This document shows, one piece after another, positions 1 through 22,025 of a DNA stretch of 22,025 bases; the stretch's first letter is position 1, and each line of letters opens with the position of its first letter. The notes below the pieces were generated by a model. That model searched no databases, was not told where the DNA came from, and was given only the letters and a program-made list of their open reading frames with translations. The stretch lies in IMG/VR virus record IMGVR_UViG_3300030098_004926, positions 1-22,025 of that record; one strand, given 5' to 3'. The stretch is from a virus. Made by a program: the position numbers and the translations under genes.

Positions 1-506
1 CTAAAATATCCATCTGCCCCTTGATTAAATACAGTCCACGACATAGTATCATTTTCTGCAAATTGTATGCCACTATTCCAGCCCTCACCACAATCTAATT
101 TCATTGTATTGTGAGAATCTCCACTATGAATGTGTAGCGATAAATCTGGAGAAGAAGTCCCAATGCCAACATTACCATCAGGATTTAACACAAGGTGTCC
201 TGAAGTACCATCATTATCATTTGTAGTAATCGTAGTAACTCCATTTGCTGCTACAGTTATAGTTGCTCCATCATCACTATTTGTGTCATCATATATGGTC
301 AAGGCAGTTGCATCGCAATCAAATAAAAAATGTGGATATCCTCCATCCTGTATTGATAATTGCCCTCCATCAGTATCAAATATAATATTCCTATCTGAAG
401 ATAAAACAACAGTCTTTTTGTTCTTCTCATATATTTGTGCTCCAGATTCACCTTTTTTCCTTATAGTATTATTGAGCCTATTTAATCTTAAATTAGGATT
501 AGACAT
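1..506 (-). CDS. Tail-fibre-like protein, 5' part of gene (runs off the left edge)
   Basis: An open frame of 168 codons starts at the ATG at 506 and leaves the window without a stop. It starts MSNPNLRLNRLNNTIRKKGE. From about residue 40 it is Asp/Asn/Gly/Thr-rich, as expected for beta-structured fibre repeats. Near residue 110-125 it has LNPDGNVGIGTSSP followed by LHIHSGDS. The NVGIGTxSP...LH pattern is common in phage fibre and receptor-binding proteins, often shortly before a C-terminal self-cleaving S74 chaperone; that part would lie outside the window. Its ATG overlaps the stop of the upstream tail gene (TAATG), so the two are probably translationally coupled. Host attachment is an inference from the motif and position. 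Confidence 0.75.
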   Translation of the reverse strand, partial: MSNPNLRLNRLNNTIRKKGESGAQIYEKNKKTVVLSSDRNIIFDTDGGQLSIQDGGYPHFLFDCDATALTIYDDTNSDDGATITVAANGVTTITTNDNDGTSGHLVLNPDGNVGIGTSSPDLSLHIHSGDSHNTMKLDCGEGWNSGIQFAENDTMSWTVFNQGADGYF

Positions 507-2956
507 TATTTAACCTTTTTCATTCTATATATTATTGTAATATCATGAAGTTCAAAAGTAGCTGCTGCTGTTCCATCAAGTTTCAATTGAAAGCTATATA
601 TATTACTTGTGCTTGCTCCTGTAGGAGTTATTTCAACCCTTTTATTCCCACTTGTTGTTGTATCCGTCAAATCTGCACTCATAGTTTCAGTTGGGGTTGT
701 ATCCCCATTTATTCCATATGTTACATCAATATTTTGATTAGTTCCACCAGTATAATTTATAATAACTTTGAATACTTTCTTAGGAACAGATGGTGCTCCA
801 AAATCAATTTCTTTTGAAGTCCATTCAAATTCTGATTGCTCTGCTGGAGTTGAATCTATATTCCTAAGATTTGCTCTTCCAGACTTCCAATAAGATAATT
901 TCCCTCCATATGTAAAGAAATTTGACATCTTTATAGTATCTCCAGAATTATCTACAAGTCCTACTATATTAGCCCATGATTGAGTTTGAAAATCATAAAC
1001 ATATGCATCATTTCCATTGGCAGAAGTGGAAACATCAGATTCTATATTTTTTATAATATATAATTTTTTTGATATAAAATCATATCCAATTGATGGAGAA
1101 GTTGCTGCATTTCCTGTATTATCATCAACTTCATATGCAGATACAATACTTGAACTTGTAAGTCCCCAATCACTAGGGTCAAATCTTCCATGCGTAAGAG
1201 AAATTACTCTATTGCCATCATATAAATAACAACCTTCATTATTTACCCAAGCAATACCCATTGGAGTTTTAGTTACTTGACATGGGTTTTGAATACCAAC
1301 TCCTGTAAATATATTCTCAACATAAAATCTTCTATCATCTGCAACATTAACAACAACAACACTATTATCCCTAAATTGGAGTATTTTATCTTTCATTGAC
1401 TCTAAAGCCCATATTGAGCCACCATCACTTACAGGTGAATCAAATGTATTGTAAAAAGGGAATACTCCAGGTCTACCTACAGCAGAAAACATCATAAGGT
1501 CAGCTTTAATTTGTCCTGATACTGCACTTGTATTTCTATTCCAATTTATATTGGCAATAAATACTCTCCCATCAGAACCAATTGTTGCACATTTATAATC
1601 TAATAATATTGGAGAAATATTACTTGTAGCTTTTTGAGTTAAATAAATCTCATCTTCAAAATATCCATTTAAATCATAAAATGATAGCGCAGTTGGAGGA
1701 TTTTGAATAGTAATATTAGAAGCCATGTTATATTTACCAGAAGCTTCTTGTGCCCAAGGAGTATAGCTAGAATCTGTATATATTTTTATTCCTTTGTCCC
1801 ATGCTGCTTCAGCTAAAAAATATTTTCTTTCAGGATTTGTTGTAGATGCAACATATACTCTCATTCCATTTATTCTTGCATCTCCACCAATAGGATTTGA
1901 AGCTGTGTGTCCAATTGATAAATTGAAAATTAGAGATGTTCCTGCACAAGAAAGTGGTGATGAATTTACTTTTGATGGAGCAGTCTCAGCTATTCCATCG
2001 AAAAGCCATGAAGCATAAAATGTGTAAGTTTCTGCATCTCCAGTTACTCCCCAGTTCCCATTTCCTGAGTCATCAGCAAAAAAGTGTACAGCCCCAGTAC
2101 TATTGACTGTAGCATATGCAGCATTAACGTCATCTTCCACTTGGTTAGCACTTGTTCCAATAGTAGGAGAATTTATTAATACATTTCCTCCAATCCAATC
2201 AAGTATTGATACTTCTTGGCTTCCATTATTAATATCAACTCTATCAACAATTGTATATAACTGTCTCTGTGAATCATATGATTTTATATTTGCATCACAT
2301 GCATATATTGCATTTGCAGTTGCATATAATACAGGAGACATTTCTTCTATCTCTTGACTTCCTCCCCCAAGATTCAATGTTGCATTTTCTCCTGTATTTG
2401 GGTCATTCATATCAAGAGCATTCTCGTCCCATCTACAGAGAAACTCATGATTTCCCCTTACTGGAGGGTCAGCTAAACTATAGCCAGTCTTAAATGCAAA
2501 TCCCCCATATCCTGCTGCTGCATCATCTCCTGAATCTGTAGTTATTGAAACTCCAGCATCTTCATCTGTACCAGTACCAGAGGTAATTATTCTTCCAGGC
2601 TTTGAAAAAGAAAGATTAGACGCAGTTATGCATTCGATAATTGAAATATCTTTAGGGTCTCCCTTTAAATTTAAGCCTCCATCAAATCTTGACATTTGGA
2701 ATGCTTTCTTTTTACCACCTATAGATAATTGTAATGGTTCAAATCCTCCAGGAATTGCATTCCATCCAACCATTGCAGTTGCAGACATGTTGCCAATATT
2801 ACTAAGATTAGCCATATTAGTTATTGCTCTTGTAGCTGCATCTTGATGAAAATCTTCTACTCCTGCCAAAAAATGTTGAGGATGATTTAATTCAAGATTT
2901 ACATCAGCTGGGTCAGTCCAACTTGAGCTCATCATTTGTATATCGTCAGTTGCCAC
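506..2956 (-). CDS. Large tail protein, nozzle/hub-like (816 aa)
   Basis: This is the largest tail-region protein in the window. Around residues 88-125 it has FDGGLNLKGDPKDISIIEC...NLSFSKPGRI, which resembles the N-terminal start of beta-propeller nozzle proteins of short-tailed phages (a 'GGLN...DP...NVxxxxPG' pattern). Later segments such as TPMGIAWVNNEGCYLYDG and GYDFISKKLYIIKN look like propeller blades. The C-terminal 120 residues are beta-rich. It starts with GTG at 2956, preceded by AGGA six bases upstream; the upstream gene's stop lies inside this ribosome-binding site. It is probably part of the tail tip or DNA-exit channel. The assignment is from sequence patterns, not a database match; a generic tail-spike role is the alternative. 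Confidence 0.6.
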   Translation of the reverse strand: MATDDIQMMSSSWTDPADVNLELNHPQHFLAGVEDFHQDAATRAITNMANLSNIGNMSATAMVGWNAIPGGFEPLQLSIGGKKKAFQMSRFDGGLNLKGDPKDISIIECITASNLSFSKPGRIITSGTGTDEDAGVSITTDSGDDAAAGYGGFAFKTGYSLADPPVRGNHEFLCRWDENALDMNDPNTGENATLNLGGGSQEIEEMSPVLYATANAIYACDANIKSYDSQRQLYTIVDRVDINNGSQEVSILDWIGGNVLINSPTIGTSANQVEDDVNAAYATVNSTGAVHFFADDSGNGNWGVTGDAETYTFYASWLFDGIAETAPSKVNSSPLSCAGTSLIFNLSIGHTASNPIGGDARINGMRVYVASTTNPERKYFLAEAAWDKGIKIYTDSSYTPWAQEASGKYNMASNITIQNPPTALSFYDLNGYFEDEIYLTQKATSNISPILLDYKCATIGSDGRVFIANINWNRNTSAVSGQIKADLMMFSAVGRPGVFPFYNTFDSPVSDGGSIWALESMKDKILQFRDNSVVVVNVADDRRFYVENIFTGVGIQNPCQVTKTPMGIAWVNNEGCYLYDGNRVISLTHGRFDPSDWGLTSSSIVSAYEVDDNTGNAATSPSIGYDFISKKLYIIKNIESDVSTSANGNDAYVYDFQTQSWANIVGLVDNSGDTIKMSNFFTYGGKLSYWKSGRANLRNIDSTPAEQSEFEWTSKEIDFGAPSVPKKVFKVIINYTGGTNQNIDVTYGINGDTTPTETMSADLTDTTTSGNKRVEITPTGASTSNIYSFQLKLDGTAAATFELHDITIIYRMKKVK

Positions 2957-9470: not shown

Positions 9471-9968
9471 TCAATCAGTATCAGTGAATAGAGCTGTTCC
9501 GTCTGTATCTGCATCATCAGAGTAGATACATCCTGAAACCATCCATTCATCGGCAGTTATTTTCATAACCTCAATCCATGAACCTTTTTCACCACCTGTA
9601 TCAGCAAGATTACCATCAAGGATGATATTACAGTCATTCGCTGCTGGAACTACTGCATGCCCATAGCCTGCTGTAGTAGAAGCCAATATGACTCCACCAA
9701 CAAAATCATCACCACCTGAATCTGCATTATCGCCTGTTGAAATTGTATATGCATTATCATTTGTTGTTTGCACAATAAATTTATAATGACATCCAACAGA
9801 ACAATTAGCATCTGTAGGTAATGTTACTGTTACAGCAGATGTTGAATTTAATGCAAAAACCTTGCCACTATCATCTTGTGAAAGAGTTTTTGATGCATTA
9901 ATAAATTCAAATCCACCAACACTTGCGTCAAAGGCATTACTGTTTGCGTTTAATTTATCGCTTCTCAT
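9471..9968 (-). CDS. Capsid decoration-like protein (165 aa)
   Basis: The core (about residues 28-75) reads KTLSQDDSGKVFALNSTSAVTVTLP...CHYKFIVQTTNDNAYTISTG. This 'D.GKxFxLN...TVTLP...FxV' pattern is a beta-domain frequent in proteins coded next to the major capsid gene and thought to decorate the head. The C-terminal half repeats similar strands and ends in an acidic tail. It is the gene directly after the major capsid gene, with a 14-base gap. A decoration or head-fibre role is inferred from pattern and place. Confidence 0.6.
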   Translation of the reverse strand: MRSDKLNANSNAFDASVGGFEFINASKTLSQDDSGKVFALNSTSAVTVTLPTDANCSVGCHYKFIVQTTNDNAYTISTGDNADSGGDDFVGGVILASTTAGYGHAVVPAANDCNIILDGNLADTGGEKGSWIEVMKITADEWMVSGCIYSDDADTDGTALFTDTD

Positions 9969-9982
9969 TATTCATGCCCTCC

Positions 9983-11326
9983 TTATATTTGGTTAATGTT
10001 AATTAAAGCATGAGTTTCAGGAAGAGATACTTCAAGACCAGCTTCGGTCAATATCATATCTTTTCTTAAATCCTCATCAGCCTGCTGAACATTAGTTGTG
10101 ATTGAAGTGTCTCGATTAACACCATTACCAACAAGAGGTCTATATGAAACATGGTCAAGGTCAACAAAACACATATGACCTGAAGCATTATTTCTAAATA
10201 AAGGCTCTTTAACAATTGAGCAATCGCCATGAACTGTTTCAATCTTCATTACTTTATGACCGAATACACCTTTAGATGATTCAAAGTTATATCGTGTTTC
10301 ACCACTCATACTCAATTCCCCAAATCCAGAGATTTTATTGAAATGAGATACAACTGGTAATGAAGCCAAGCAAAGCTTGTTTGAAGAACCACCACGAGCT
10401 GGGTCATACATAACTTCAAATGCACCAAGAAGACCATCATAAGTCATCTCTGAAGTTGTAAACATGCCTAGATATGGAACACCTTCTGAGTAAGAACCTA
10501 TACTACCATCAGTAATTGTACCATTTTGAAGTATATGTCCTACAATACCTTCAGTATATTGGATTCCACCTTGAGAACCACGCATACCAAAAAGTAATGC
10601 TCTTTCAATATCAACTTTATGCTCACGTAACTTTAAGTTCCAAAGACGTTGCCATTCATCAGCATATCCACGATATACAGTTGCACGAGCAGTATTTGAC
10701 ATCTCACAAGCTGTCTTAAAGATTTGGGTATAACCATAATCATTATCTAGCTCTTGAGACCATACATCAGGTGCACCTGAACCTTGCTCATATGATGTAC
10801 CAATAACTACAGCATCACCATCATTATCAAGAGCAACTGTACTTCCGTCAACAGTTTGTATTGTTTTAACAACTATTGATGTATCAGCAGAATTTTGAGT
10901 AACTGATTCAATACGAGCTGTGCCTTGCAATAAAGGCTCATTAGCATCGCCAATTGTATTTTTATTTTGTGCGAATGAAACAACCATTCCCTTAATTAAC
11001 CATGGTACAGTTGCATCAGAGCCACCAGATTGCATATCTACAAGAACTGTAGTATTTCCACCTGGAGCTGCTAATGTCTGAGTACCATCAACTTGAAAGC
11101 TTCGGTCAGTAATCGCAATTTTTGTTCTATCTTCCAAAAATCGGAATTGCGAATCCGATGTTGGAACTTTCCCTACTTTTGACAAATATACAAAAAACGG
11201 AGATTCTTCTGGAGCTAAGTCAGCGACCCTATCACTAAAGTCATACAGTCTACGTGATGGTATTGTACTATCAATAACTGCACCAGGAGTTCCGAATTTT
11301 ACTTGTCCACTATTAAAAGTAGCCAT
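9983..11326 (-). CDS. Major capsid protein (447 aa)
   Basis: It sits directly after portal and scaffold in the canonical order. Key stretches are SRRLYDFSDRVADLAPEESP (residues ~24-43), TQIFKTACEMSNTARATVYR (about 200-219) and LREHKVDIERALLFGMRG. This matches the layout of SU10/DUF5309-type HK97-fold major capsid proteins: N-terminal arm, 'TQIF...vS.T', then a long backbone helix. Its length suits an HK97-fold subunit without a fused protease. An inserted Asp/Thr-rich domain lies at about residues 95-195. The ribosome-binding site AAGGAG is strong, as expected for the most abundant virion protein. Alternatives are unlikely. Confidence 0.88.
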   Translation of the reverse strand: MATFNSGQVKFGTPGAVIDSTIPSRRLYDFSDRVADLAPEESPFFVYLSKVGKVPTSDSQFRFLEDRTKIAITDRSFQVDGTQTLAAPGGNTTVLVDMQSGGSDATVPWLIKGMVVSFAQNKNTIGDANEPLLQGTARIESVTQNSADTSIVVKTIQTVDGSTVALDNDGDAVVIGTSYEQGSGAPDVWSQELDNDYGYTQIFKTACEMSNTARATVYRGYADEWQRLWNLKLREHKVDIERALLFGMRGSQGGIQYTEGIVGHILQNGTITDGSIGSYSEGVPYLGMFTTSEMTYDGLLGAFEVMYDPARGGSSNKLCLASLPVVSHFNKISGFGELSMSGETRYNFESSKGVFGHKVMKIETVHGDCSIVKEPLFRNNASGHMCFVDLDHVSYRPLVGNGVNRDTSITTNVQQADEDLRKDMILTEAGLEVSLPETHALININQI

Positions 11327-14166: not shown

Positions 14167-15735
14167 TCAGCTCCTTGCACCTGTAAGCCAGTTATAAACC
14201 TTTCTTTTTTTACTGTAAGTTCCATCCTGCCCTTTTTCAAGCTTTTTCTTGCCAATTTTCTTATTTCCTTTGGCAAATTGAGTCGATAACCAAAAGGCAT
14301 CAATACAATCATCATGAGAACCTTTAGGGAAATCAATAAGCTCTCCAATAAACTCATGCATATCTTTTCTTAAATGAACTGCTCCTTGTCTAAATTTTGG
14401 TTGCAATCCTTCAAATAGCCTATCTTTCTTCTTTTGGTTGCCATATCCCTTGATACCCATCTCAATTCCTGGGATAAATATTCCTTCTTTCTTACTTCTC
14501 TTTTGAACATAATCTCTTAACATCTCTTGATAGGCAATTGTTTCAATGTTTACTCTTTTGACTGGTGTGTATCTTTCGACATATTTGAAAATTTCGTCTG
14601 CACAATCCATTGGAAGAACTCTTTTCCTCCAATAATCAATAACATAATAGTCAAAATCGACAGTAACAGCAGTAACCATAATAACGCTGTAGTCATTACG
14701 AGACCCAAGAGTAGAAGCTGGGTCAACTCCGATATACAAGTTGACATATTTTTTTTCTCCGTCATCCAATTGTAGATACCAGCTACCTGCTCCGTCATCA
14801 TATCTAACATGCCCTTTATACAATCCATCCGTTATATCCTCCTCACTAAAAATTTGGTCTTCAGGAGACTTAGCTTGATTCATATATTCTTGATAAAACT
14901 TGCTTGGAGTGCCAGAATCAATATAGAATTGCTTTCTTTCTTCCAATTTCTTTACTGGCCAACGTGAGGGCCAGAGAGGTGTACCATCATCAAGAAGTGC
15001 TTTATACGTAACTATATTCCAAGAAAACTCTTCTCCATTTTTCATTGCAGCGTTATGGTCTCTAACTAAGTTGTTTAAGAACGAATCATAATGAACGATA
15101 GTTCCATTACACCATAAGAATCCATTCTTATCAAAATCAATCGCTGGATAAACAGCAGCAGTTACCCAATTCTTAATTTGTTGCCTTGATTCAGGAGTTT
15201 TTGTATTTAACTCTGATTCAAAGTCATCTAATACCATTCCAGTATATCTTGTTGAATTTTGCTTTTTACCACGAAGACGTTGAGATGTACCCTTACCAAT
15301 CATACGACATCCGTTTGATAGGGTAAATTCATTCTTTGTCCATTTATCCCCTTGAAGGTCTCCGAAATAGTAGTGGATAGCAGGATTTGAATAAATATGA
15401 TTCATAATCCAACTAATATTGTCAACTGCTTGGTCTTGAGCCTCACCAATCCACGCTATAAACTCAGGCTTGTCTTTTTCTGCAAATAAGAATCTATGGA
15501 GGATTGCAGTTGATGCTAATGTAGATTTAGCATGGTCACGAGGAAGAACAAGACCTAATTGTTGAATTTTTCTATCTAATAGTAAACTCCCAACCTCACG
15601 ATGGAAATTAGGAGTTGCTGTTGCCATAAAGTCTTGAGGGGAAAATAGTTTCCCAAATGTTATAAGGTCATGATAAGCATTATGCAAAACCTTTTCATTC
15701 TCAGAAACATTACCATTTAAATTTAAGTTAGCCAT
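14167..15735 (-). CDS. terL: Terminase large subunit (522 aa)
   Basis: It is the packaging motor ATPase and headful/cos nuclease. The ATPase domain has a Walker A-like LPRDHAKST (64-72), Walker B MVLDDFE (167-173; DD then the catalytic E173) and a coupling motif around WCNGTIVHYDS (208-218). The RNase H-like nuclease domain has GVDPAST (D338), NIETIAYQ (E398) and SHDDCIDA (D475, D476, D479). All catalytic acids are present. The Walker A is the degenerate form common in phage terminases. It precedes portal by 38 bases. No clear Shine-Dalgarno is seen before the ATG; it starts 11 bases after the upstream gene's stop and may be translated by re-initiation. Confidence 0.94.
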   Translation of the reverse strand: MANLNLNGNVSENEKVLHNAYHDLITFGKLFSPQDFMATATPNFHREVGSLLLDRKIQQLGLVLPRDHAKSTLASTAILHRFLFAEKDKPEFIAWIGEAQDQAVDNISWIMNHIYSNPAIHYYFGDLQGDKWTKNEFTLSNGCRMIGKGTSQRLRGKKQNSTRYTGMVLDDFESELNTKTPESRQQIKNWVTAAVYPAIDFDKNGFLWCNGTIVHYDSFLNNLVRDHNAAMKNGEEFSWNIVTYKALLDDGTPLWPSRWPVKKLEERKQFYIDSGTPSKFYQEYMNQAKSPEDQIFSEEDITDGLYKGHVRYDDGAGSWYLQLDDGEKKYVNLYIGVDPASTLGSRNDYSVIMVTAVTVDFDYYVIDYWRKRVLPMDCADEIFKYVERYTPVKRVNIETIAYQEMLRDYVQKRSKKEGIFIPGIEMGIKGYGNQKKKDRLFEGLQPKFRQGAVHLRKDMHEFIGELIDFPKGSHDDCIDAFWLSTQFAKGNKKIGKKKLEKGQDGTYSKKRKVYNWLTGARS

Positions 15736-15746
15736 TAATGCTTAAA

Positions 15747-16139
15747 TTATTTAGGCATTGGCATTTTATGAAATTTATAATAATCCTCCACTTCCTTACG
15801 TGGAATTGTATCTTGTGGTGACTGCTTTATAGCATTTAGTAACATTTGCATTACTTGCCTTCTTGTTCCTTCTCCATATTCTGGATGACCGAAACTGCTA
15901 GGCATAGACGAAGATTTCATATAATATCTTTTCTCTCCACCTTCAGTTTCACCTTCAGCTATTGCTGTAACTATATTAGTTAGATAATCTGGAAATATTG
16001 CGTTTTCAGGAATCTTTATTGTCTCCGTCATCACTTCATTCTTAATATTTTGTGGATTACGCTTATTTTGCTCAATCAAAGTATCAAGTTGAGAATGTGC
16101 ATTATTTCCCATTATCATATCTATAAATTTTTTTACCAT
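15747..16139 (-). CDS. Small protein between lysis-like genes and terminase (130 aa)
   Basis: It is not recognised. It has a hydrophobic/basic N-terminus (MVKKFIDMIMGNN), an Asn/Gln-rich linker, a central helical part (FPDYLTNIVTAIAEGETEGG, about 55-75) and a C-terminus DTIPRKEVEDYYKFHKMPMP. The frame is open to TTG at 16154, but that codon lies in the GAGGAG ribosome-binding site; the ATG at 16139 is correctly spaced. It lies between the 45-aa membrane gene and the large terminase, so a packaging or lysis accessory function is possible. Confidence 0.7.
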   Translation of the reverse strand: MVKKFIDMIMGNNAHSQLDTLIEQNKRNPQNIKNEVMTETIKIPENAIFPDYLTNIVTAIAEGETEGGEKRYYMKSSSMPSSFGHPEYGEGTRRQVMQMLLNAIKQSPQDTIPRKEVEDYYKFHKMPMPK

Positions 16140-16140
16140 T

Positions 16141-16278
16141 TCAATTCTCCTCAATTATATGTTCATGTTGAATATCACAATAACTCGGACATGGAGTAAT
16201 TTGTGATTCATTATATTTTTCAAATAAAATTAGTAGGATGAATATTAATATTGCTAATATTCCATCCTGATTAATCAC
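16141..16278 (-). CDS. Small one-span membrane protein (45 aa), GTG start
   Basis: A GTG start overlaps the TGA of the lysozyme-like gene by four bases (GTGA), a classic coupled junction. The chain is VINQDG, then a strongly hydrophobic helix ILAILIFILLILF (residues 7-19), then a polar C-terminus with C30 and C34 (TPCPSYC) and an acidic end. Its own stop is followed by the correctly placed GAGGAG of the next gene. The arrangement right after a lysozyme-like gene makes it a candidate holin, or a small spanin/signal-anchor protein. There is no lipobox (LxxC) near the N-terminus, which argues against a lipoprotein spanin. Confidence 0.65.
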   Translation of the reverse strand: MINQDGILAILIFILLILFEKYNESQITPCPSYCDIQHEHIIEEN

Positions 16279-16751
16279 CCTTTATAGTGTTCCATGCTAT
16301 GCATGAATGATTCGATGTGTCCTTCTCTATGAGAAGCATCTCCAGCCCAATGATAATCAGCCCACCAATCAGGTAGGTTCTCAGCCGATAAACCTTTCAA
16401 GCTAGCCTTTGGATGATATCTAACATTGCCAAGAAACATCATTTTTTGTGCATCTTCAGTTAATTCAGAGGCATCTACTCCATTATCTCCAATATTAGCC
16501 CATGAAGGGATATCAACTTCACTAGCATTGAACCATCTAACAAGTCTTCTCATGGCAGTTTCACCACCTTGGCTTTTACCAACCTCAAATTGGAATAAAC
16601 CTCTACCTGGTCCACCACCGATTTGTTTGCAATCCACAACACTTCTTGATTCGTGCCATGCAATACGATTCATTACATCTTCAACATTATCTTCAGATTG
16701 TTTGTATCGGTTTGATATGTTTTGCAAGACATAATTATATAAATTACCCAT
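16275..16751 (-). CDS. Lysozyme/transglycosylase-like peptidoglycan hydrolase (158 aa)
   Basis: The N-terminal half has IAWHES (30-35; E34 as likely catalytic acid), then GPGRGLFQFE (47-56) and KSQGGETAMRRL (59-70). The E...G-x-G-L-F-Q-F arrangement is that of lysozyme-superfamily/transglycosylase domains, and GPGRGLFQFE is frequent in a phage peptidoglycan-hydrolase family. The C-terminus has LPDWWADYHWAGDAS. No signal peptide or membrane helix is seen, so a holin or virion delivery would be needed to reach the wall. It is coded between small and large terminase genes with a membrane gene overlapping its end, so either endolysin or virion lysin is possible. GGGAG precedes the ATG at a 9-base distance. 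Confidence 0.65.
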   Translation of the reverse strand: MGNLYNYVLQNISNRYKQSEDNVEDVMNRIAWHESRSVVDCKQIGGGPGRGLFQFEVGKSQGGETAMRRLVRWFNASEVDIPSWANIGDNGVDASELTEDAQKMMFLGNVRYHPKASLKGLSAENLPDWWADYHWAGDASHREGHIESFMHSMEHYKG

Positions 16752-16753
16752 GA

Positions 16754-17002
16754 TTAAGATTCTCCCATTTCGTCCATTCCATGGATACCCATAAGAACAG
16801 AGTTTTCATCAAACATTCCTTTGCAATGTGGACACATCCATCCATAAGGTTCATCATTTTCGTCAACAAGTCCGATTCTTTTGCTAAATTCTTCATTTAG
16901 ATACAAAGATTCCTTGCACATTGGGCATAAATCTTCTTCTTCTTCTTCTTCACTCTTCTTTGTCTTCTGATGATGCATGTATGAGTGGTGTGGCTTTGCC
17001 AT
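16754..17002 (-). CDS. Zinc-ribbon protein (82 aa)
   Basis: Two CxxC knuckles are present, C26-P-M-C29 and C57-P-H-C60, with intervening EEFSKRIGLVDENDEPYGWM. The pattern 'CPxC...RIxLVDxxDxxxxWxCPxC' is common in small phage zinc ribbons. An acidic run of seven residues (EEEEEED) precedes the first knuckle, and the N-terminus is His-rich (HHSYMHH). It overlaps the end of the small terminase gene by 53 bases in another frame; a strong GGAGG site 9 bases before the ATG supports the start. Its role is unknown; DNA or protein binding is typical. Confidence 0.75.
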   Translation of the reverse strand: MAKPHHSYMHHQKTKKSEEEEEEDLCPMCKESLYLNEEFSKRIGLVDENDEPYGWMCPHCKGMFDENSVLMGIHGMDEMGES

Positions 17003-17690
17003 TCTTTACTTCCTCCAGTTGTTCAGGTGTAAACCCAGCGAATACAGTCAATTGTTCTGACTTTTTCTCATTCAGGTCGAATAGACCTGCGATTTTAGTT
17101 AAAGACTCAAGTGAACGAAGCTTATCTGAGTCACGCTCAGCAACATCAGCAATTGTCTTATACCTACCAATTATCCATTCAGCTGTTACACCTTCCTCTT
17201 CAAGACATTTATGGATTTCTTCTTTAATCATCTTTTGTATACTCTCCGTTCTTAAAAGTTTTCCTATGCTTTTTTGTATTCCAAGCTCAGATTTAGCTCT
17301 TGGGAATGCTTTCTTATAAGCTACAGTTGCCTCAACACCTTGAGCAATATATTGTGCAAATAGGAATTGCCTATTCGTCACGTGTTTTGTTAAATTAGGG
17401 GTCTTTCCAGAGAATGAATAGATATTTTCGGCTATTCCGTTTTCACCTATCATTGCCCTATTACGATTCTTAATGTCAAATGTTCCACACACTGTTCGAA
17501 CACAGTCTTTATTGCCAATTTTTATTATACGGAGGATTTGACACACATAATCATCATCGGTCTTTACCCATTCCCCTTCAACTCCATCTCTCCAATAATG
17601 TCTGAGGGGTTTATCGCTATGGAAAGCCCTAAATTCTTCAGGATTATCATATAAATAGTGTTCTTTTCCTTTTATTGTCATGAAATCCAT
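16950..17690 (-). CDS. terS: Terminase small subunit (246 aa)
   Basis: Residues 105-155 form the expected DNA-binding helix-turn-helix region (TNRQFLFAQYIAQGVEATVA, then AYKKAFPRAKSELGIQKSIG). Residues 167-206 (GVTAEWIIGRYKTIADVAER, then DSDKLRSLESLTKIAGLFDL) are the oligomerisation-type helices seen in many phage small terminases. About 100 extra residues at the N-terminus (HYWRDGVEGEWVKTDDDYVC region) have no match I recognise. It should recognise the packaging start and load DNA onto the large subunit. It is the first gene of the late block. It lacks a Shine-Dalgarno; a promoter-like element ends 5 bases before the ATG. A second in-frame ATG lies at 17681. Confidence 0.82.
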   Translation of the reverse strand: MDFMTIKGKEHYLYDNPEEFRAFHSDKPLRHYWRDGVEGEWVKTDDDYVCQILRIIKIGNKDCVRTVCGTFDIKNRNRAMIGENGIAENIYSFSGKTPNLTKHVTNRQFLFAQYIAQGVEATVAYKKAFPRAKSELGIQKSIGKLLRTESIQKMIKEEIHKCLEEEGVTAEWIIGRYKTIADVAERDSDKLRSLESLTKIAGLFDLNEKKSEQLTVFAGFTPEQLEEVKNGKATPLIHASSEDKEE

Positions 17691-17695
17691 AGGTA

Positions 17696-17725
17696 AATAT
17701 AGTTAGAAATGTATGCAAATTGCAA
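17696..17725 (-). promoter_or_regulatory. Promoter-like element before the small terminase gene
   Basis: On the minus strand, TTGCAA (17725-17720), an 18-base spacer and TATATT (17701-17696) are followed by TACCT and the ATG at 17690. TTGCAW-N18-TATATTTACC is identical in form to the element before the portal gene. This is the best candidate for the late promoter. The RNA start would fall at about the ATG, giving a leaderless message. Confidence 0.55.
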
Positions 17726-18047
17726 ATTTAGATTTAATTCCCCTTATATATATATATTATCAGTATATATATATCAGTATATATTTATAAATGTTAAATA
17801 TATATATAAAAAGAAAAATAAATATAATACAAAAAGAAAAAGTAAAAAAATTTCTAAAAAAAATTTTAGGAAAATGGATATTAAAATTAGAGAAATTTGA
17901 AAAATAATATTAGAATGCGTGTACCTCTTTCTTATCGAATACCCCACCCACTCAAGTTCCCCTATGGGTACTAAATTAGGTTGAAATTCCAATTAAATTA
18001 GCCAATTATAATTATAAACTAAATTTTTATTTAATAAAAGAAAATAA
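17702..18047. other. AT-rich non-coding control region
   Basis: No credible gene is seen here. It contains two direct copies of TATCAGTATATAT (17758-17770 and 17772-17784), runs of TA, two copies of AAAAAGAAAA (17808-17817, 17831-17840) and long A-tracts to about 17870. It also holds a GC-rich island at 17913-17972 with GTACC/GGTAC and TACCC/GGGTA inverted arms. The low melting stability and direct repeats would suit a replication origin or enhancer-like region, but nothing decides this. Confidence 0.4.
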
Positions 18048-18073
18048 AAAGCCTCACTAACTTGCGAGGCTTT
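18048..18073 (-). terminator. Bidirectional-looking intrinsic terminator
   Basis: AAAGCCTC (18048-18055) and GAGGCTTT (18066-18073) form an 8-bp stem with a 10-base loop. On the minus strand the stem runs into TTTTTATTTT, a good release tract. On the plus strand the tract is weaker (CTTTC). It ends the minus-strand micro-operon just before the late-gene control region and would separate it from late transcription. Confidence 0.8.
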
Positions 18074-18106
18074 CTTTCAATACATACATAATAAATATTA
18101 TATATA

Positions 18107-18274
18107 TTATATACCTTTGATACTCTCCAATTCATCAATAGACAACATATCAAAACAATCATTAGTAATTTTATTACCTTGCAATTTTCTTTTTCTATTG
18201 CTTATGGTCTTACAATAATTATTATTATAAGTTTTACTAATATAATTATTTATTATTGTAGTTTCATTTAACAT
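18107..18274 (-). CDS. Microprotein of unknown function (55 aa)
   Basis: The ATG at 18274 follows a well-placed GGAG (GGAGAATATAAATG) and opens a 55-codon frame. The first half is Asn/Thr/Tyr/Ile-rich, then a basic patch SNRKRKLQGNK (residues 25-35), then CFDMLSIDELESIKGI. The basic middle could bind nucleic acid. The ATG directly abuts the stop of the 40-aa gene upstream (TAAATG), and a terminator follows 34 bases after its stop. Promoter, ribosome-binding site, coupling and terminator together support a real gene despite the AT-rich DNA. Confidence 0.6.
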   Translation of the reverse strand: MLNETTIINNYISKTYNNNYCKTISNRKRKLQGNKITNDCFDMLSIDELESIKGI

Positions 18275-18397
18275 TTATATTCTCCAATCTTCTATATTAT
18301 TAATAAATTCTTCTATTAAATCCATAATTTTATGAATCTTATCCGAATCATTTTCCAATAGTTCCATAATTTTTAGTTCTAATTCTTCATAATCCAT
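18275..18397 (-). CDS. Acidic helical microprotein (40 aa)
   Basis: The frame MDYEELELKIMELLENDSDK continues IHKIMDLIEEFINNIEDWRI. It is acidic and amphipathic throughout and would form one or two helices. AAGG lies 10 bases before the ATG. It is the first gene of a two-gene minus-strand unit read away from the early genes. Acidic first gene plus basic second gene recalls small regulator or antitoxin/toxin pairs, but no family is recognised and that comparison is only an inference. Confidence 0.55.
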   Translation of the reverse strand: MDYEELELKIMELLENDSDKIHKIMDLIEEFINNIEDWRI

Positions 18398-18467
18398 TAT
18401 TATTATTCCTTATATTAGTTAATTAACATATATAATATATATAATAATTATTATAAATACCTAATAA

Positions 18468-18496
18468 ATAATAAATAGTTTGTTTATTATTTTCAA
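18468..18496 (-). promoter_or_regulatory. Promoter of the minus-strand micro-operon
   Basis: On the minus strand, TTGAAA (18496-18491), a 17-base spacer and TATTAT (18473-18468) match the sigma-70 consensus at 5 of 6 positions each with ideal spacing. The RNA would start near 18461, leaving a leader of about 64 bases before the 40-aa gene. Confidence 0.6.
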
Positions 18497-18510
18497 TATT
18501 CTTAATATTA

Positions 18511-18536
18511 CTCAACGCATTTATATATGTGTTAAG
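18511..18536. promoter_or_regulatory. Imperfect dyad, possible operator
   Basis: CTCAACGCAT (18511-18520) and ATGTGTTAAG (18527-18536) are inverted repeats matching at 8 of 10 positions around a 6-base centre. It lies between the two divergent promoters. Its centre is 50 bases from that of the next dyad, about five helical turns. Confidence 0.4.
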
Positions 18537-18540
18537 CTTT

Positions 18541-18571
18541 TTGAAATTGTTGGAAATAACTTCGGTATAAC
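18541..18571 (+). promoter_or_regulatory. Possible promoter of the first early gene
   Basis: TTGAAA (18541-18546) and TATAAC (18566-18571) are separated by 19 bases, longer than ideal. TATAAA at 18589-18594 is an alternative -10 without a good -35. Some promoter must lie here because the 149-aa gene is the first rightward gene. Confidence 0.35.
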
Positions 18572-18590
18572 AAATATGTTACCCTAGTTA
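18557..18590. promoter_or_regulatory. Imperfect dyad overlapping the early promoter
   Basis: TAACTTCGGTA (18557-18567) and TACCCTAGTTA (18580-18590) are inverted repeats matching at 9 of 11 positions around a 12-base centre. The arms cover the putative -10 of the early promoter, which is where a repressor site is usually placed. No repressor gene is recognised in the window. Confidence 0.45.
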
Positions 18591-18637
18591 TAAATAATAC
18601 TAATAATAATAATAATAAATAATAAGGAATTAATACA

Positions 18638-19087
18638 ATGGAAACTTCATTATTGAAAAAACTAGGTGTTAAAAAATCTTCTAATGTTGTTAAAAGTGTT
18701 ACTGAAAAAAGCTCAATAGAAAAGCAAATTAATGCTGATTTAGTTAAGGCTGGACACGAGATGTTATTAAAAAAATATCCTCAATATTATGTAAGTGTTG
18801 AAAATTTAGACATAACGAAAATTGATGTTGATGGAAATTTAAAAGTGAATGATAACAATGAAGTGTTAGAAAAAAAGCATAGTGGTTATGTAATTTTAAT
18901 ACCACAAGACAACACGGAAATAAAACACAATAAAAGCGTTATTAAATTAGATAAATCTTTTAGGTGTGGATTTTTAACAAGCTATTTAAAAGATAGCAAA
19001 ACATCAATTGTTGAGTATGTAAAAATAAATGGTAAAAAATGTACTACAATTGAGCAAATAAAAAATGTCAATAAAAAAGAAGATTAA
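18638..19087 (+). CDS. First early gene, unknown function (149 aa)
   Basis: It is not recognised. It has a Lys/Ser-rich N-terminus (METSLLKKLGVKKSSNVVKS), a helical stretch (about 30-47), then a beta-rich part (YYVSVENLDITKIDVDGNLK; HSGYVILIPQDN; FRCGFLTSYLKDSKTSIVEY). Overall basic and Lys-rich. AAGGA lies 10 bases before the ATG, after a run of TAA/AAT triplets. It forms a transcription unit of its own: divergent promoter region before it and a strong terminator 25 bases after it. Such an isolated first early gene is often expressed immediately after infection; function cannot be inferred further. Confidence 0.8.
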   Translation: METSLLKKLGVKKSSNVVKSVTEKSSIEKQINADLVKAGHEMLLKKYPQYYVSVENLDITKIDVDGNLKVNDNNEVLEKKHSGYVILIPQDNTEIKHNKSVIKLDKSFRCGFLTSYLKDSKTSIVEYVKINGKKCTTIEQIKNVNKKED

Positions 19088-19105
19088 ACTTTATTGATAG
19101 ATTTT

Positions 19106-19146
19106 AACAAAGCCCTTGACAAAGTAAAATTTGTTGAGGGTTTTTT
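19106..19146 (+). terminator. Strong intrinsic terminator after the first early gene
   Basis: CCCTTGACAAA (19113-19123) pairs with TTTGTTGAGGG (19130-19140) over 11 positions (two G-T wobbles) with a 6-base loop, followed by six T. The flanking AACAAAG can extend the stem into the T-tract. It should separate the 149-aa gene from the small-gene operon, unless antitermination acts. Confidence 0.85.
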
Positions 19147-19147
19147 G

Positions 19148-19176
19148 TTGCATTAAGTTTTTATTCCACTGATAAT
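19148..19176 (+). promoter_or_regulatory. Promoter of the early small-gene operon
   Basis: TTGCAT (19148-19153), a 17-base spacer and GATAAT (19171-19176) start right after the terminator. The TTGCAT box is the same as that before the portal gene. Five bases after the -10 lies an ATG (19182), repeating the layout seen at the small terminase. Confidence 0.6.
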
Positions 19177-19181
19177 TTAAA

Positions 19182-19214
19182 ATGGAAAAGGAAAAGGAAA
19201 GGGACAGTAAATGA
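19182..19214 (+). CDS. Possible 10-codon leader ORF
   Basis: ATG at 19182 opens MEKEKERDSK and stops with TGA overlapping the ATG of the next gene (ATGA). The start would be at or near the RNA 5' end. The purine-rich codons (GAA AAG repeats) also supply the ribosome-binding site GGAAAGGGA for the next gene. It may be a leader peptide that brings ribosomes to that gene, or only a purine-rich leader. Confidence 0.3.
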   Translation: MEKEKERDSK

Positions 19215-19462
19215 AAATAGACACTAAAAATTTTAATGTGAAAACATTGAAATATCCTGATGGAAGTGTTCAAATAAAACTAGAGCCAAAGAAATGCAAT
19301 TGTTATGGCTGTAGTAAGCAAATAGAGTGGGCAGGAGCAAATAGTATATTATGGATTGATGCCGAAACCAACTGTAGAATGCAAGGAAGGTTTTGTAGAG
19401 AATGTCATCAGCAACTGAAATTGGAAGCTAGAGAATATAAAACCAAAGGTTTAATACTTTAA
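19211..19462 (+). CDS. Early zinc-binding protein (83 aa)
   Basis: Cysteines are placed as C29-x-C31-x2-C34 (CNCYGC) and C62-x2-C65-H66 (FCRECH), with another at C55. This suits a zinc knuckle or treble-clef-type site between residues 29 and 66. The N-terminus (about 1-28) is two short strands (VKTLKYPDGSVQIKLEP). First substantial gene of the small-gene operon. Function unknown; small zinc proteins in early phage regions often bind host proteins or nucleic acid. Confidence 0.75.
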   Translation: MKIDTKNFNVKTLKYPDGSVQIKLEPKKCNCYGCSKQIEWAGANSILWIDAETNCRMQGRFCRECHQQLKLEAREYKTKGLIL

Positions 19463-19485
19463 AATAAAGGAAAACAGCAAATGAA
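19462..19485 (+). repeat. Ribosome-binding/start cassette, copy 1 of an exact pair
   Basis: A 24-base stretch beginning AAATAAAGGAAAACAGCAAA and running through the ATG is repeated exactly at 19646-19669, each time placed before a small early gene. It suggests recent duplication of a gene-start unit. Confidence 0.8.
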
Positions 19486-19651
19486 TAATACTAAAAAGTT
19501 ATTTTATATGGAAGGGACTGAAACAACCCTTGAATCAATAATAAAGGAAAACCCTGAATTGCTTACTGCTGAAGAAAAAAAGGCTATCAGAAGATTAAAG
19601 GTAACGCAATCAGTATATATTGGAAATATTTTAATTGAAAGAATTAAATAA
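19481..19651 (+). CDS. Early microprotein (56 aa)
   Basis: The frame MNNTKKLFYMEGTETTLESI continues IKENPELLTAEEKKAIRRLK and ends with a hydrophobic VYIGNILIERIK. It is charged and helical, without cysteines. The ribosome-binding site AAAGG with 8-base spacing is in the duplicated cassette, supporting the start. It fills the gap between two recognised small genes. Unknown function. Confidence 0.7.
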   Translation: MNNTKKLFYMEGTETTLESIIKENPELLTAEEKKAIRRLKVTQSVYIGNILIERIK

Positions 19652-19669
19652 AGGAAAACAGCAAATGAA
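19646..19669 (+). repeat. Ribosome-binding/start cassette, copy 2 of an exact pair
   Basis: Identical over 24 bases to 19462-19485. It overlaps the last codons of the 56-aa gene and includes the ATG of the next gene. Confidence 0.8.
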
Positions 19670-19898
19670 AAACGTACTAATGTTAAGGAGTGTAGAGGTA
19701 GCCATTGATGAAGAAGGCTGCTTTTATGAACTGGAAAGGAAAGGCAATGGTTACAGAGCATTGATTCAACAAGAACCAATTCATCATATTGAAGATACTG
19801 TTGTGGAATGGTATGATGAGCTTAACAACTATGACCTGATGAGATTAACAATGTGGGTATATATGTATGAAATCAGAACACCATATAACTTTAGATAA
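19665..19898 (+). CDS. Early protein of unknown function (77 aa)
   Basis: The frame is open from a TTG at 19635, but the ATG at 19665 is correctly placed behind the duplicated ribosome-binding site, so MKNVLMLRSVEVAIDEEG is taken as the start. It is acidic and aromatic-rich (VVEWYDELNNYDLMRLTMWV and YMYEIRTPYNF), which suggests a compact protein-binding fold. There are no known motifs. Seventeen bases separate it from the next gene. Confidence 0.75.
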   Translation: MKNVLMLRSVEVAIDEEGCFYELERKGNGYRALIQQEPIHHIEDTVVEWYDELNNYDLMRLTMWVYMYEIRTPYNFR

Positions 19899-19915
19899 CA
19901 AGGAGAAACAGTAAA

Positions 19916-20242
19916 ATGGAACGACTAGGCAATAAGGTTTTAAGGCAGCCAGATTGGACTGCAAAGGATGACGAATGTTTTAAATATCCTGATAGAGTAA
20001 AGGTAAGAGCTTGTACAGATAAAGCAAAGTGGATGAATATTAGCATTGACAGATGTGAAGATGAGGGAAGGCTGTTTGTCGGTCTATCTTCTTATCATAC
20101 ATCAACAGAATATACTGAAGGTGATATATCAATGCAAATAGCAATAGAAGATGTGCCTGTACTAATAGAAGCAATGCAACAGGCATATGAAAAACAAGTA
20201 ATAAGAGAACACCAAACAAAATGGAGTAATAATAATGATTGA
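19916..20242 (+). CDS. Early protein of unknown function (108 aa)
   Basis: It is not recognised. The N-terminal half carries WTAKDDECFKYPDRVKVRAC and the middle has beta-type ISIDRCEDEGRLFVGLSSYH. The C-terminal helix IEDVPVLIEAMQQAYEKQVI is amphipathic. AAGGAG lies 11 bases before the ATG. It overlaps the next gene by eight bases; its last residues SNNND are coded by that gene's ribosome-binding/start cassette. Confidence 0.75.
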   Translation: MERLGNKVLRQPDWTAKDDECFKYPDRVKVRACTDKAKWMNISIDRCEDEGRLFVGLSSYHTSTEYTEGDISMQIAIEDVPVLIEAMQQAYEKQVIREHQTKWSNNND

Positions 20243-20423
20243 TTATATATGCTGGAACTCACCAAAAATTAGCCATCACGTTATCTTTACTGTAGTTGAA
20301 ATAACAGGTATAAAAAATGGTTATTGTGATATTGTATATCGTACAGGTAGTGGAGACAAACACACAGCGTATGATGTACCTGTTAATCAATTAGAAATAA
20401 TAAAGGAGAATAATAATGAGTAA
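20235..20423 (+). CDS. Early small beta-type protein (62 aa)
   Basis: Starts MIDYICWNSPKISHHVIFTV and continues with strands (VEITGIKNGYCDIVYRTGSG, TAYDVPVNQLEII), which suggests a small beta-barrel or SH3-like fold. There is no catalytic motif. GGAG precedes the ATG inside the upstream gene, and the last residues ENNNE overlap the start cassette of the next gene by eight bases. Unknown function. Confidence 0.7.
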   Translation: MIDYICWNSPKISHHVIFTVVEITGIKNGYCDIVYRTGSGDKHTAYDVPVNQLEIIKENNNE

Positions 20424-20610
20424 TAATAAAACAGAAATACCAAACCAGAAGAAAACAAGGATGTTCGCATCTTTTATGAATAAAGAGCATCAACAGGCTG
20501 TATTGGATGATGTATTAAAGGTAATACCACCACATCATCAACATAGACTGTTCTTGTTTTTAAGCATGATGGATTCAACAATAGCAGAGGGGTATTCAGA
20601 TGACAATTAA
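20416..20610 (+). CDS. Early small helical protein (64 aa)
   Basis: It starts MSNNKTEIPNQKKTRMFASF and has a helical core EHQQAVLDDVLKVIPPHHQHRLFLFLSMMDS with a PPHHQH turn. The rest is polar and acidic at the end (GYSDDN). Its end overlaps the next ATG by eleven bases. The start lies behind GGAGAATAATAATG. Not recognised. Confidence 0.7.
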   Translation: MSNNKTEIPNQKKTRMFASFMNKEHQQAVLDDVLKVIPPHHQHRLFLFLSMMDSTIAEGYSDDN

Positions 20611-20764
20611 AGAACAACAAAAATTAGCAGATAGACAGGATTATCTTATTGACAGACTAACAAATGGAGAAGAAGAATTTTTAGATATGTTGGAAGAATT
20701 TTATGATATATCTGTAATATTAAATGGCTTAATAAAAAAGGAGAATAATAATGACAATAACTGA
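20600..20764 (+). CDS. Early acidic microprotein (54 aa)
   Basis: ATG at 20600 overlaps the end of the upstream gene and is preceded by GAGGGG. The chain MTIKEQQKLADRQDYLIDRL continues TNGEEEFLDMLEEFYDISVI and ends KKENNNDNN, where the last residues are coded by the next gene's ribosome-binding/start cassette. It overlaps that gene by 14 bases. Acidic and helical; unknown function. It fills what would otherwise be a 140-base gap. Confidence 0.65.
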   Translation: MTIKEQQKLADRQDYLIDRLTNGEEEFLDMLEEFYDISVILNGLIKKENNNDNN

Positions 20765-21029
20765 ACTTAAAAAACCAGTAGAGATTGATGAGGATTGCCA
20801 GTTTATGGATGACCTTGTAACAATAGACAATGGCAGTAGGAATTATAGTCTTGGTATGTGGAACTTAATCTGTTCAATCAGAGACCTTAAGTTGTTCTGT
20901 AAAGGAATAAAGCCACATAGACATTGGAAGTTTACACCTGTAAAGAAATACTTTGGTATGACAGGTAATAAAGAAACAATGTTAGCCAAATTGCAACTGT
21001 TAAAACAAACACTTGATGGAGGAGAATAA
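20751..21029 (+). CDS. Early protein of unknown function (92 aa)
   Basis: Not recognised. Residues 30-75 carry RNYSLGMWNLICSIRDLKLF and CKGIKPHRHWKFTPVKKYFG, a basic aromatic stretch that could bind nucleic acid or a host protein. The C-terminal helix KETMLAKLQLLKQTLDGGE overlaps the next gene's cassette (GGE is coded by GGAGGAGAA). GGAGAATAATAATG precedes its start. Confidence 0.75.
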   Translation: MTITELKKPVEIDEDCQFMDDLVTIDNGSRNYSLGMWNLICSIRDLKLFCKGIKPHRHWKFTPVKKYFGMTGNKETMLAKLQLLKQTLDGGE

Positions 21030-21032
21030 CAG

Positions 21033-21257
21033 ATGAGTAATACAATGATAGCTGCACATAAAGTAGGGCAGTTTATAATGAGCAGAACAGGGATTAATTT
21101 CTTGGAGTTTCCTGATACAGTCGTAGTGAGTGATTGGGTTGATGATGATATGACAGAAAAAGATATTGATGAGATTGTACCTGATATTGCTTGGGAGATT
21201 CTGGATAACTCTGGAATGGATAGAGATGCTGTAAACAATATATGTTATGGAGAATAA
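21033..21257 (+). CDS. Early acidic protein (74 aa)
   Basis: Not recognised. The N-terminus (MSNTMIAAHKVGQFIMSRTG) is followed by a very acidic middle DWVDDDMTEKDIDEIVPDIAW (residues about 34-54). Nucleic-acid-mimicking or host-inhibiting proteins are often this acidic, but no fold is recognised. It ends YGE, coded by the next gene's ribosome-binding site (GGAGAATAATAAATG). Confidence 0.75.
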   Translation: MSNTMIAAHKVGQFIMSRTGINFLEFPDTVVVSDWVDDDMTEKDIDEIVPDIAWEILDNSGMDRDAVNNICYGE

Positions 21258-21260
21258 TAA

Positions 21261-21605
21261 ATGAAGAAAACAATAATAGTTAACAGAGACCATATGATAG
21301 ATGGATGTCCTGAAGATAGTACATTCTGTGCAATAGCATTGGCTGTGGAAGATTCAGGATTAGTGAGAGAAAATGAGTCTATAGATGTAGATGGTGCAGG
21401 GAATATATCTGTGGAACGTATCGCAGATGCTTCAGACCAATGTTGTGCCAGTTACGAAACTATTCAGTTTAGATATATAACTGATGAAATGCACGATGAT
21501 GCACAGGCTTTTATTGCTTGGTATGATAGAGCTACTGATGCAGAGATAATGTCAGATGGTAATAAAATGCAATTTTCATTTGAACTTGAAAGAGAGGATA
21601 TGTAA
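21261..21605 (+). CDS. Early protein, phage family of unknown function (114 aa)
   Basis: Starts MKKTIIVNRDHMIDG, then CPEDSTFCAIALAVEDSG (about 16-33), and later AQAFIAWYDRATDAE and a closing MQFSFELEREDM. The order 'I.V...H...G...(x)C.IALA...(long)...A..FI..yD......F.F.L' is, from memory, shared by a common uncharacterised family in phages and bacteria. No catalytic residues are known. It ends TAATG with the next gene. Confidence 0.7.
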   Translation: MKKTIIVNRDHMIDGCPEDSTFCAIALAVEDSGLVRENESIDVDGAGNISVERIADASDQCCASYETIQFRYITDEMHDDAQAFIAWYDRATDAEIMSDGNKMQFSFELEREDM

Positions 21606-21745
21606 TGGAGCTGAGAGAATTTAGTTATTACTGTATAGATAGAGCTATACATCCAGACATAGCTCTTGAAAATAAGAATATAATTGAGGCACTTAAAAGC
21701 AGAGATGATAAAGAAGTGATTCGATTACTTGATACTGAATTTTAA
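21605..21745 (+). CDS. Early microprotein (46 aa)
   Basis: ATG overlaps the TAA of the upstream gene (TAATG). The chain MELREFSYYCIDRAIHPDIA continues LENKNIIEALKSRDDKEVIR and ends LLDTEF. Charged, helical, one Cys. There is no separate strong Shine-Dalgarno (GAGAGGA lies about 6 bases upstream within the previous gene). Coupled start and tight spacing support it. Unknown function. Confidence 0.65.
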   Translation: MELREFSYYCIDRAIHPDIALENKNIIEALKSRDDKEVIRLLDTEF

Positions 21746-21765
21746 ATAATAAAGGGGAATAACAG

Positions 21766-21921
21766 ATGAAAATAAGAATAACTAAAAAACAAGCTGATTA
21801 TTTATTGATGGCTATTGAAGTCTGTTCAAATGAAATACATCCACCAGACAAAGAAGAAGCTGAAATAATTTCATCATTAATAAATATCAATAATGACCAC
21901 TATCACTTAGAAGGAGAATAA
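21766..21921 (+). CDS. Early microprotein (51 aa)
   Basis: ATG follows a strong AAAGGGG site (GGGGAATAACAGATG). The chain MKIRITKKQADYLLMAIEVC continues with an acidic DKEEAEIISSLIN helix and ends HYHLEGE, where LEGE overlaps the next gene's cassette. A basic N-terminus then helix; no motif recognised. Confidence 0.7.
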   Translation: MKIRITKKQADYLLMAIEVCSNEIHPPDKEEAEIISSLININNDHYHLEGE

Positions 21922-21923
21922 TA

Positions 21924-22025
21924 ATGAAAGAAACAGTAACAGTATATCGCTTTAGAGATGCATTTAGACAGAGCGATACATATAAAAATAACTTCAGCTA
22001 TGAAGGACTTCATGCTCTGTTTGAA
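21924..22025 (+). CDS. Early protein, N-terminal part (runs off the right edge)
   Basis: GGAGAATAATAATG precedes a frame of 34 codons to the window end: MKETVTVYRFRDAFRQSDTY then KNNFSYEGLHALFE. The pattern 'FRDAF......NFSYEGLxALFxY' is, from memory, a widespread uncharacterised family in phages and their hosts. The rest lies outside the window. Confidence 0.7.
   Translation, partial: MKETVTVYRFRDAFRQSDTYKNNFSYEGLHALFE

Follow-up and report, generated by a model that had tools for sequence, protein, structure and literature searches.

Two small genes, here called micA and micB, lie on the minus strand between the gene of the terminase small subunit (TerS) and a divergent 149-aa gene of an uncultured phage. 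They form a genuine two-gene unit. We think it probable that this unit is the smallest form of an operon found in the same slot in relatives of the phage, and that it supplies accessory proteins directed at host factors early in infection.

The window, i.e., the whole stretch of DNA analyzed, is a 22,025-base virus record (IMG/VR IMGVR_UViG_3300030098_004926). PHROG and Pfam scans identified genes for a P22-type portal, an SU10-type capsid protein and the large and small terminase subunits. A named phage collection contained no near DNA match to the window, the best named-phage TerL or MCP matches were only about 25% identical, and a TerL scan of genome contigs found no relative. The closest relative found was L001, part of a 43,963-base IMG/VR contig. 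The phage is a member of an uncultured marine clade. Among its late proteins, one of 816 aa (506-2956, minus strand) had no PHROG match at E 1.

The features of the region are as follows.

16950..17690, minus strand: terminase small subunit, TerS (PF03592 above cut-off; PHROG 51, E 2.2e-09)
17905..17986, minus strand: element upstream of TerS, with conserved TTCAACCTAA and CACNCATTCTAA on either side of a hypervariable, GC-rich dyad core; proposed cos-type site (pattern, alignment, dyad excess)
18046..18075, minus strand: intrinsic terminator of the micro-operon, 12 pairs, 5 of them G-C, with a T-rich tail (-17.6 kcal/mol)
18107..18274, minus strand: micB, 55 aa, basic, Asn-rich, with an RKRK patch (ORF, dN/dS)
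18275..18397, minus strand: micA, 40 aa, acidic (pI 4.1), predicted two-helix hairpin (ORF, homologues, dN/dS, AlphaFold)
18282..18285, minus strand: Shine-Dalgarno (SD)-like GGAG of micB, 7 nt from the ATG, within micA (identical in L001)
18407..18411, minus strand: SD-like AAGGA of micA, 9 nt from the ATG (identical in L001)
18468..18496, minus strand: promoter-like TTGAAA-17-TATTAT (sequence match, not above chance)
18638..19087, plus strand: 149-aa divergent early-side gene that bounds the slot on its other side (several relatives have related proteins)

micA and micB are protein-coding genes

An earlier note on this DNA had described two coupled ORFs of 40 and 55 aa with ribosome-binding sites, joined as TAAATG. 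Both are present, coding and beyond chance, with the stop codon of micA and the start codon of micB fused end to end. Comparison with L001 (NG86) gave a dN of 0.030 and a dS of 0.56 for micA (dN/dS about 0.05), and 0.037 and 0.38, respectively, for micB (dN/dS about 0.10). Eight of the 10 substitutions in micA and 8 of the 13 in micB fall in third positions; 3 non-synonymous codons were observed versus 7.1 expected in micA and 5 versus 9.7 in micB, and as few or fewer were obtained with probabilities of 0.0015 and 0.001, respectively, in 20,000 random placements. In this stretch, the window and L001 differ by a single indel, one nucleotide located exactly between the two frames (TAAATG versus TAAAATG, respectively).

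We also generated 3000 dinucleotide shuffles of the 947-b gap and scored both strands for SD-led ATG ORFs of at least 40 aa. A single such ORF was obtained 52 times, and no shuffle produced two adjacent ones. Homologues of micA were found at the same site in three relatives, L001, L004 and L009 (93%, 57% and 53% identical). The synonymous bias, the junction indel, the micA homologues at the same place and the shuffle result indicate that micA and micB are, by these measures, real protein-coding genes.

The charges announced in the earlier note were borne out as well. The micA product contains 13 D/E against 4 K/R residues (pI 4.1), and that of micB 6 D/E against 8 K/R (pI 8.7), including the basic RKRK patch. 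AlphaFold predicted helices at residues 3-15 and 21-39 of the micA protein (pLDDT 88.1, pTM 0.60), a fold with no significant PDB match (best E, 4.8). No confident structure model was obtained for the micB protein (pLDDT 59.4).

Searches against known families

PHROG, Pfam, NCBIfam and PADLOC returned only sub-threshold or very weak matches for micA and micB, and PDB sequence and fold searches gave no match for the proteins of the unit. For micB, a match to PHROG 13535 (E 0.0024) was rejected, since the 91% identical copy in L001 had no match at E 0.1. The last residues of micB matched the NCBIfam CCRG-2 RiPP leader below its cut-off (E 0.015), with nothing following the motif, and this candidate was discarded too. 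A 381-aa protein of Leptospira phage LE1 aligned with micB at 45% identity over 38 residues, with an E value of 2 in the full search and a profile E value of 0.00058 among few loci; we took this similarity as chance. For micA, neither the match to PHROG 2758 nor the tblastn matches in T4-like phages (E 6-7) were retained, since they extend over only about 20 residues. As far as these searches reach, micA and micB are two small protein families without a relative in the libraries searched. Likewise, the divergent 149-aa gene had no informative family match in PHROG, Pfam or NCBIfam.

The slot is conserved and its genes are exchanged

Relatives were gathered by TerL and TerS searches, which yielded 80 and 45 loci, respectively, and TerS served as the synteny anchor across them. 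A close set of 12 sequences was defined, namely, the window and 11 loci in which TerS is about 72% or more identical and the site is covered. The earlier note had proposed to search for conserved microproteins at the same site in relatives, and this search showed micA in four genomes (window, L001, L004 and L009) and micB in two of them. In 7 of the 12 sequences (L018, L023, L084, L086, L088, L090 and, partially, L019), the slot carries another acidic family, of 52 aa; the L086 and L090 proteins are identical, and the L084 form has 62 aa. An unrelated 32-aa ORF occupies the slot in the last one, L002. A terminator-like hairpin was seen by eye downstream in all 12. In two of the four micA genomes, L004 and L009, micA stands alone directly ahead of the terminator, and micB was found only in the window and L001, always together with micA. 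Scans of contigs confirmed 3 of 236 stretches with the micA alignment and, among viral contigs, 1 of 25 candidate stretches for micB; a micB profile search of 242 sequences revealed no further homologue save the weak LE1 match.

The micA protein and the 52-aa family resemble each other in position, acidity and their -RI end. Homology between them was unsupported by hhalign (probability 19%, 14 columns). In L018, a putative 28-aa ORF rich in Tyr, Gly and Cys (874-960, plus strand) occupies the place of micB and overlaps, as TAATGA, the stop codon of the 52-aa gene. An inverted repeat, GGCAATAATGCC, is located shortly upstream of the SD of the 52-aa gene in L018, L023, L084, L088 and L090, and the divergent spacer of L009 has ACAAGTAATACTTGT instead; both are possible operators.

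When the survey was widened to 54 complete gaps, 46 of them contained one to five co-oriented, SD-led small ORFs, and a terminator preceded the conserved element in 45 of the 54. This survey excluded 78 of 132 distinct elements, which had no divergent SD-led ORF of at least 85 aa within 3.5 kb. L004 was scored as having no ORF even though it encodes micA, because the stop-to-stop frame there begins ahead of the SD-led ATG, and some of the eight gaps without an ORF also lacked a terminator and may represent another locus. These counts of ORFs and terminators indicate conservation of the slot with its insulation but not of its contents. With the slot kept and the genes swapped, the unit of the window appears as the minimal version of a gene-swapping operon found across the clade.

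Longer slot operons (L052, L064, L170 and others) encode recurring small proteins that start with MLSRKYYRLIAKAIKDN, MRKFDFKNLTLETAEEEIFALQG or MIGTHRTT. Of these, only the MIGTHRTT protein has a family, Kyanoviridae Gp96, which was also the only one above a family cut-off when ten slot proteins of relatives were scanned. Gp96 (PF23790/PHROG 554) is an accessory cyanophage family with a member in the slot of L170; it is, however, unrelated to micA or micB.

The window and L001 are 96-100% identical over 16026-17925 (100-base bins) and 100% identical at 19226-19425, versus 84-97% over 18026-19125, with the sharpest drop, to 58%, over 17926-18025. Similarly, dS is 0.03 for TerS and 0 for an 83-aa gene, versus 0.38-0.56 for micA, micB and the 149-aa gene. 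From this drop in identity and the contrast in dS, the slot and the divergent gene have apparently been exchanged as a block or are diverging much faster than their surroundings, with one edge at the conserved element. The slot is not unique in this respect, since the same pair of genomes shows more mosaic blocks, e.g., near 9,500-11,000 and 15,750-16,000.

Terminator and promoter

The earlier note had also postulated a full transcription unit. Its terminator is real, running from 18075 to 18046 just outside the interval assigned to the unit, and it is convincingly strong and recurrent in relatives. With an intrinsic terminator at its end, the unit is separated from the late terminase operon. 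The promoter part of the claim did not hold up, as the match is at chance level: 41 promoter-like sites were found in 15001-22025 versus a mean of 43.0 in shuffled sequences, and an equally good match (10/12 or better) turned up in 737 of 2000 shuffled versions of the 240-b spacer. L001 has the same two hexamers with an identical spacer between them, yet the whole intergenic region is >90% identical. The TTGAAA-TATTAT pair is thus only a candidate, although some promoter is expected in the spacer; transcription of the micro-operon from elsewhere is also possible. With a promoter match no better than chance, the timing of expression is something that we infer. Across nine aligned spacers, conservation is highest in the block GTCAAARAAC (TTGACA when read in the early direction).

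What the unit might do

In the explanation that we favor, the unit would be transcribed by host RNA polymerase soon after infection, starting within the AT-rich divergent spacer, and would encode accessory proteins that act on a host factor. As an acidic helical hairpin, the micA protein might engage in protein-protein contacts, by analogy with small early phage inhibitors, and micB would be an optional second gene. No family, sequence or fold match, however, indicates which host target that would be.

Phage morons are independently transcribed accessory units located between phage genes, such as lambda bor and lom. Like them, the micro-operon is small, has its own terminator (18046-18075), lies between two conserved blocks and differs in contents among relatives; its own promoter is a candidate match only. 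Unlike a moron, it is not inserted in an otherwise empty joint, as 46 of the 54 gaps of relatives carry some operon. Lytic phages also encode small early host-takeover proteins, e.g., T7 gp0.3, gp0.4 and gp2. The slot genes are similarly small, charged and variable, but the proteins of the unit have no sequence or fold match to solved proteins, and we infer their early expression. In kind, micA and micB are ordinary small phage accessory genes; it is their setting that is interesting.

The micA protein, with or without that of micB, might instead be a regulator, as the earlier note suggested from the position of the unit. By binding RNA polymerase or another regulator, it would control the early-to-late switch, acting from its own spacer. 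The location of the unit between two divergent units fits this idea, a small acidic protein modeled as helical would be plausible as a polymerase-binding factor, and the GTCAAARAAC block, with its TTGACA-like -35 in the early direction, is kept in most of the nine aligned relatives. A core switch should be conserved, however, whereas the slot gene is replaced in relatives that keep the surroundings. In addition, Pfam, PHROG, NCBIfam and PDB revealed no DNA-binding family or fold, the micA model being a plain helical hairpin. We therefore regard a regulatory role as rather unlikely.

A role of the slot proteins in the virion, as minor structural components or packaging helpers, appears more doubtful still. 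The slot adjoins the terminase genes on the same strand as the late genes, and more distant relatives have longer, coiled-coil-like slot proteins. Nevertheless, 45 of 54 gaps have a terminator between the unit and TerS, and swapping of packaging helpers among close relatives is not expected.

A pair in which acidic micA neutralizes basic micB, as in toxin-antitoxin systems, is very improbable. The earlier note had named such a pair as a possibility; the products have opposite charges, the genes are tightly coupled, and purifying selection acts on both in the two genomes where they occur. Genes of a type II toxin-antitoxin system are kept together as a pair; here, micA is found in four genomes and micB in just two of them, which makes an obligate pair unlikely. 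In the relatives read, the 52-aa family likewise stands alone before the terminator, except for the 28-aa ORF of L018. Neither gene matched a toxin-antitoxin family at useful scores in PADLOC, Pfam or NCBIfam. What stands of the earlier interpretation is a real, co-oriented two-gene unit at the early/late divergence with its own terminator, without the toxin-antitoxin pairing.

Finally, we give hardly any credence to the idea that the transcript itself is the product, as a small RNA or leader with incidental ORFs: the unit is short and AT-rich with a strong terminator, but substitutions are strongly synonymous in both frames, the SDs and starts are preserved, and an Rfam scan yielded only two matches, both below gathering scores and both at the terminator region.

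A conserved dyad element beside the slot

The pattern of the element between the slot and TerS was detected in 70 of 74 loci examined and confirmed in 68 on reading, as L064 and L065 are pattern matches unlike the element; the other four loci lack the block. The element lies 146-551 nt upstream of TerS across loci. Its core varies widely among relatives, and C-run-first and G-run-first forms both occur, with the geometry kept. Among 109 distinct cores, the best dyad had a mean of 3.35 G-C pairs versus 2.61 after shuffling (highest of 100 round means, 2.77), and dyads with four or more G-C pairs were found in 54 of the 109 cores versus 10.8% of shuffles. The arms of the 25 strongest dyads listed are 11-18 nt apart, mostly 14-16. 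RNAalifold, run on 20 sequences, supported no more than 3 pairs, with 4-5 two-sided changes in each.

The lambda-type cos region is located upstream of the small terminase gene. The element resembles it in its position upstream of TerS and its hyphenated GC-rich dyad, and it combines conserved flanks with a dyad-symmetric core, as a cos site would. It differs in that contig ends are not piled up at the element, cleavage there being only a proposal. Among 133 distinct elements, contig ends on the TerS side were scattered 2, 20, 24, 44, 65 and 82 nt before CACNCATTC (L181, with an internal cut, was excluded). Contig starts near the element were considered as a sign of a cos cut and dismissed, being few and scattered. 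With no accumulation of ends at one base, the chromosome-end idea draws no support from contig ends. Position and symmetry nevertheless suggest that the element is a candidate cos-type or other terminase site.

If the element were cos, the unit and TerS would lie at opposite ends of the virion chromosome, with the unit possibly among the first genes entering the cell. It is conceivable, though we would not bet on it, that the clade maintains the slot as a dedicated end-of-chromosome site for a terminator-insulated operon next to a rapidly diverging cos-type site, near which recombination swaps first-entry host-interaction genes among phages that are otherwise almost identical, micA and micB being such effectors.

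Significance of the slot

A seemingly empty AT-rich gap of this phage is a conserved slot in which small genes are exchanged and the borders stay. Such slots are a good hunting ground for new host-takeover or counter-defense proteins of uncultured marine phages. Should the element prove to be cos, the slot would lie at a virion chromosome end, beside a packaging site whose core diverges fast with its geometry kept. If the end-of-chromosome reading is true, micA and micB would represent two new families of first-entry effectors.
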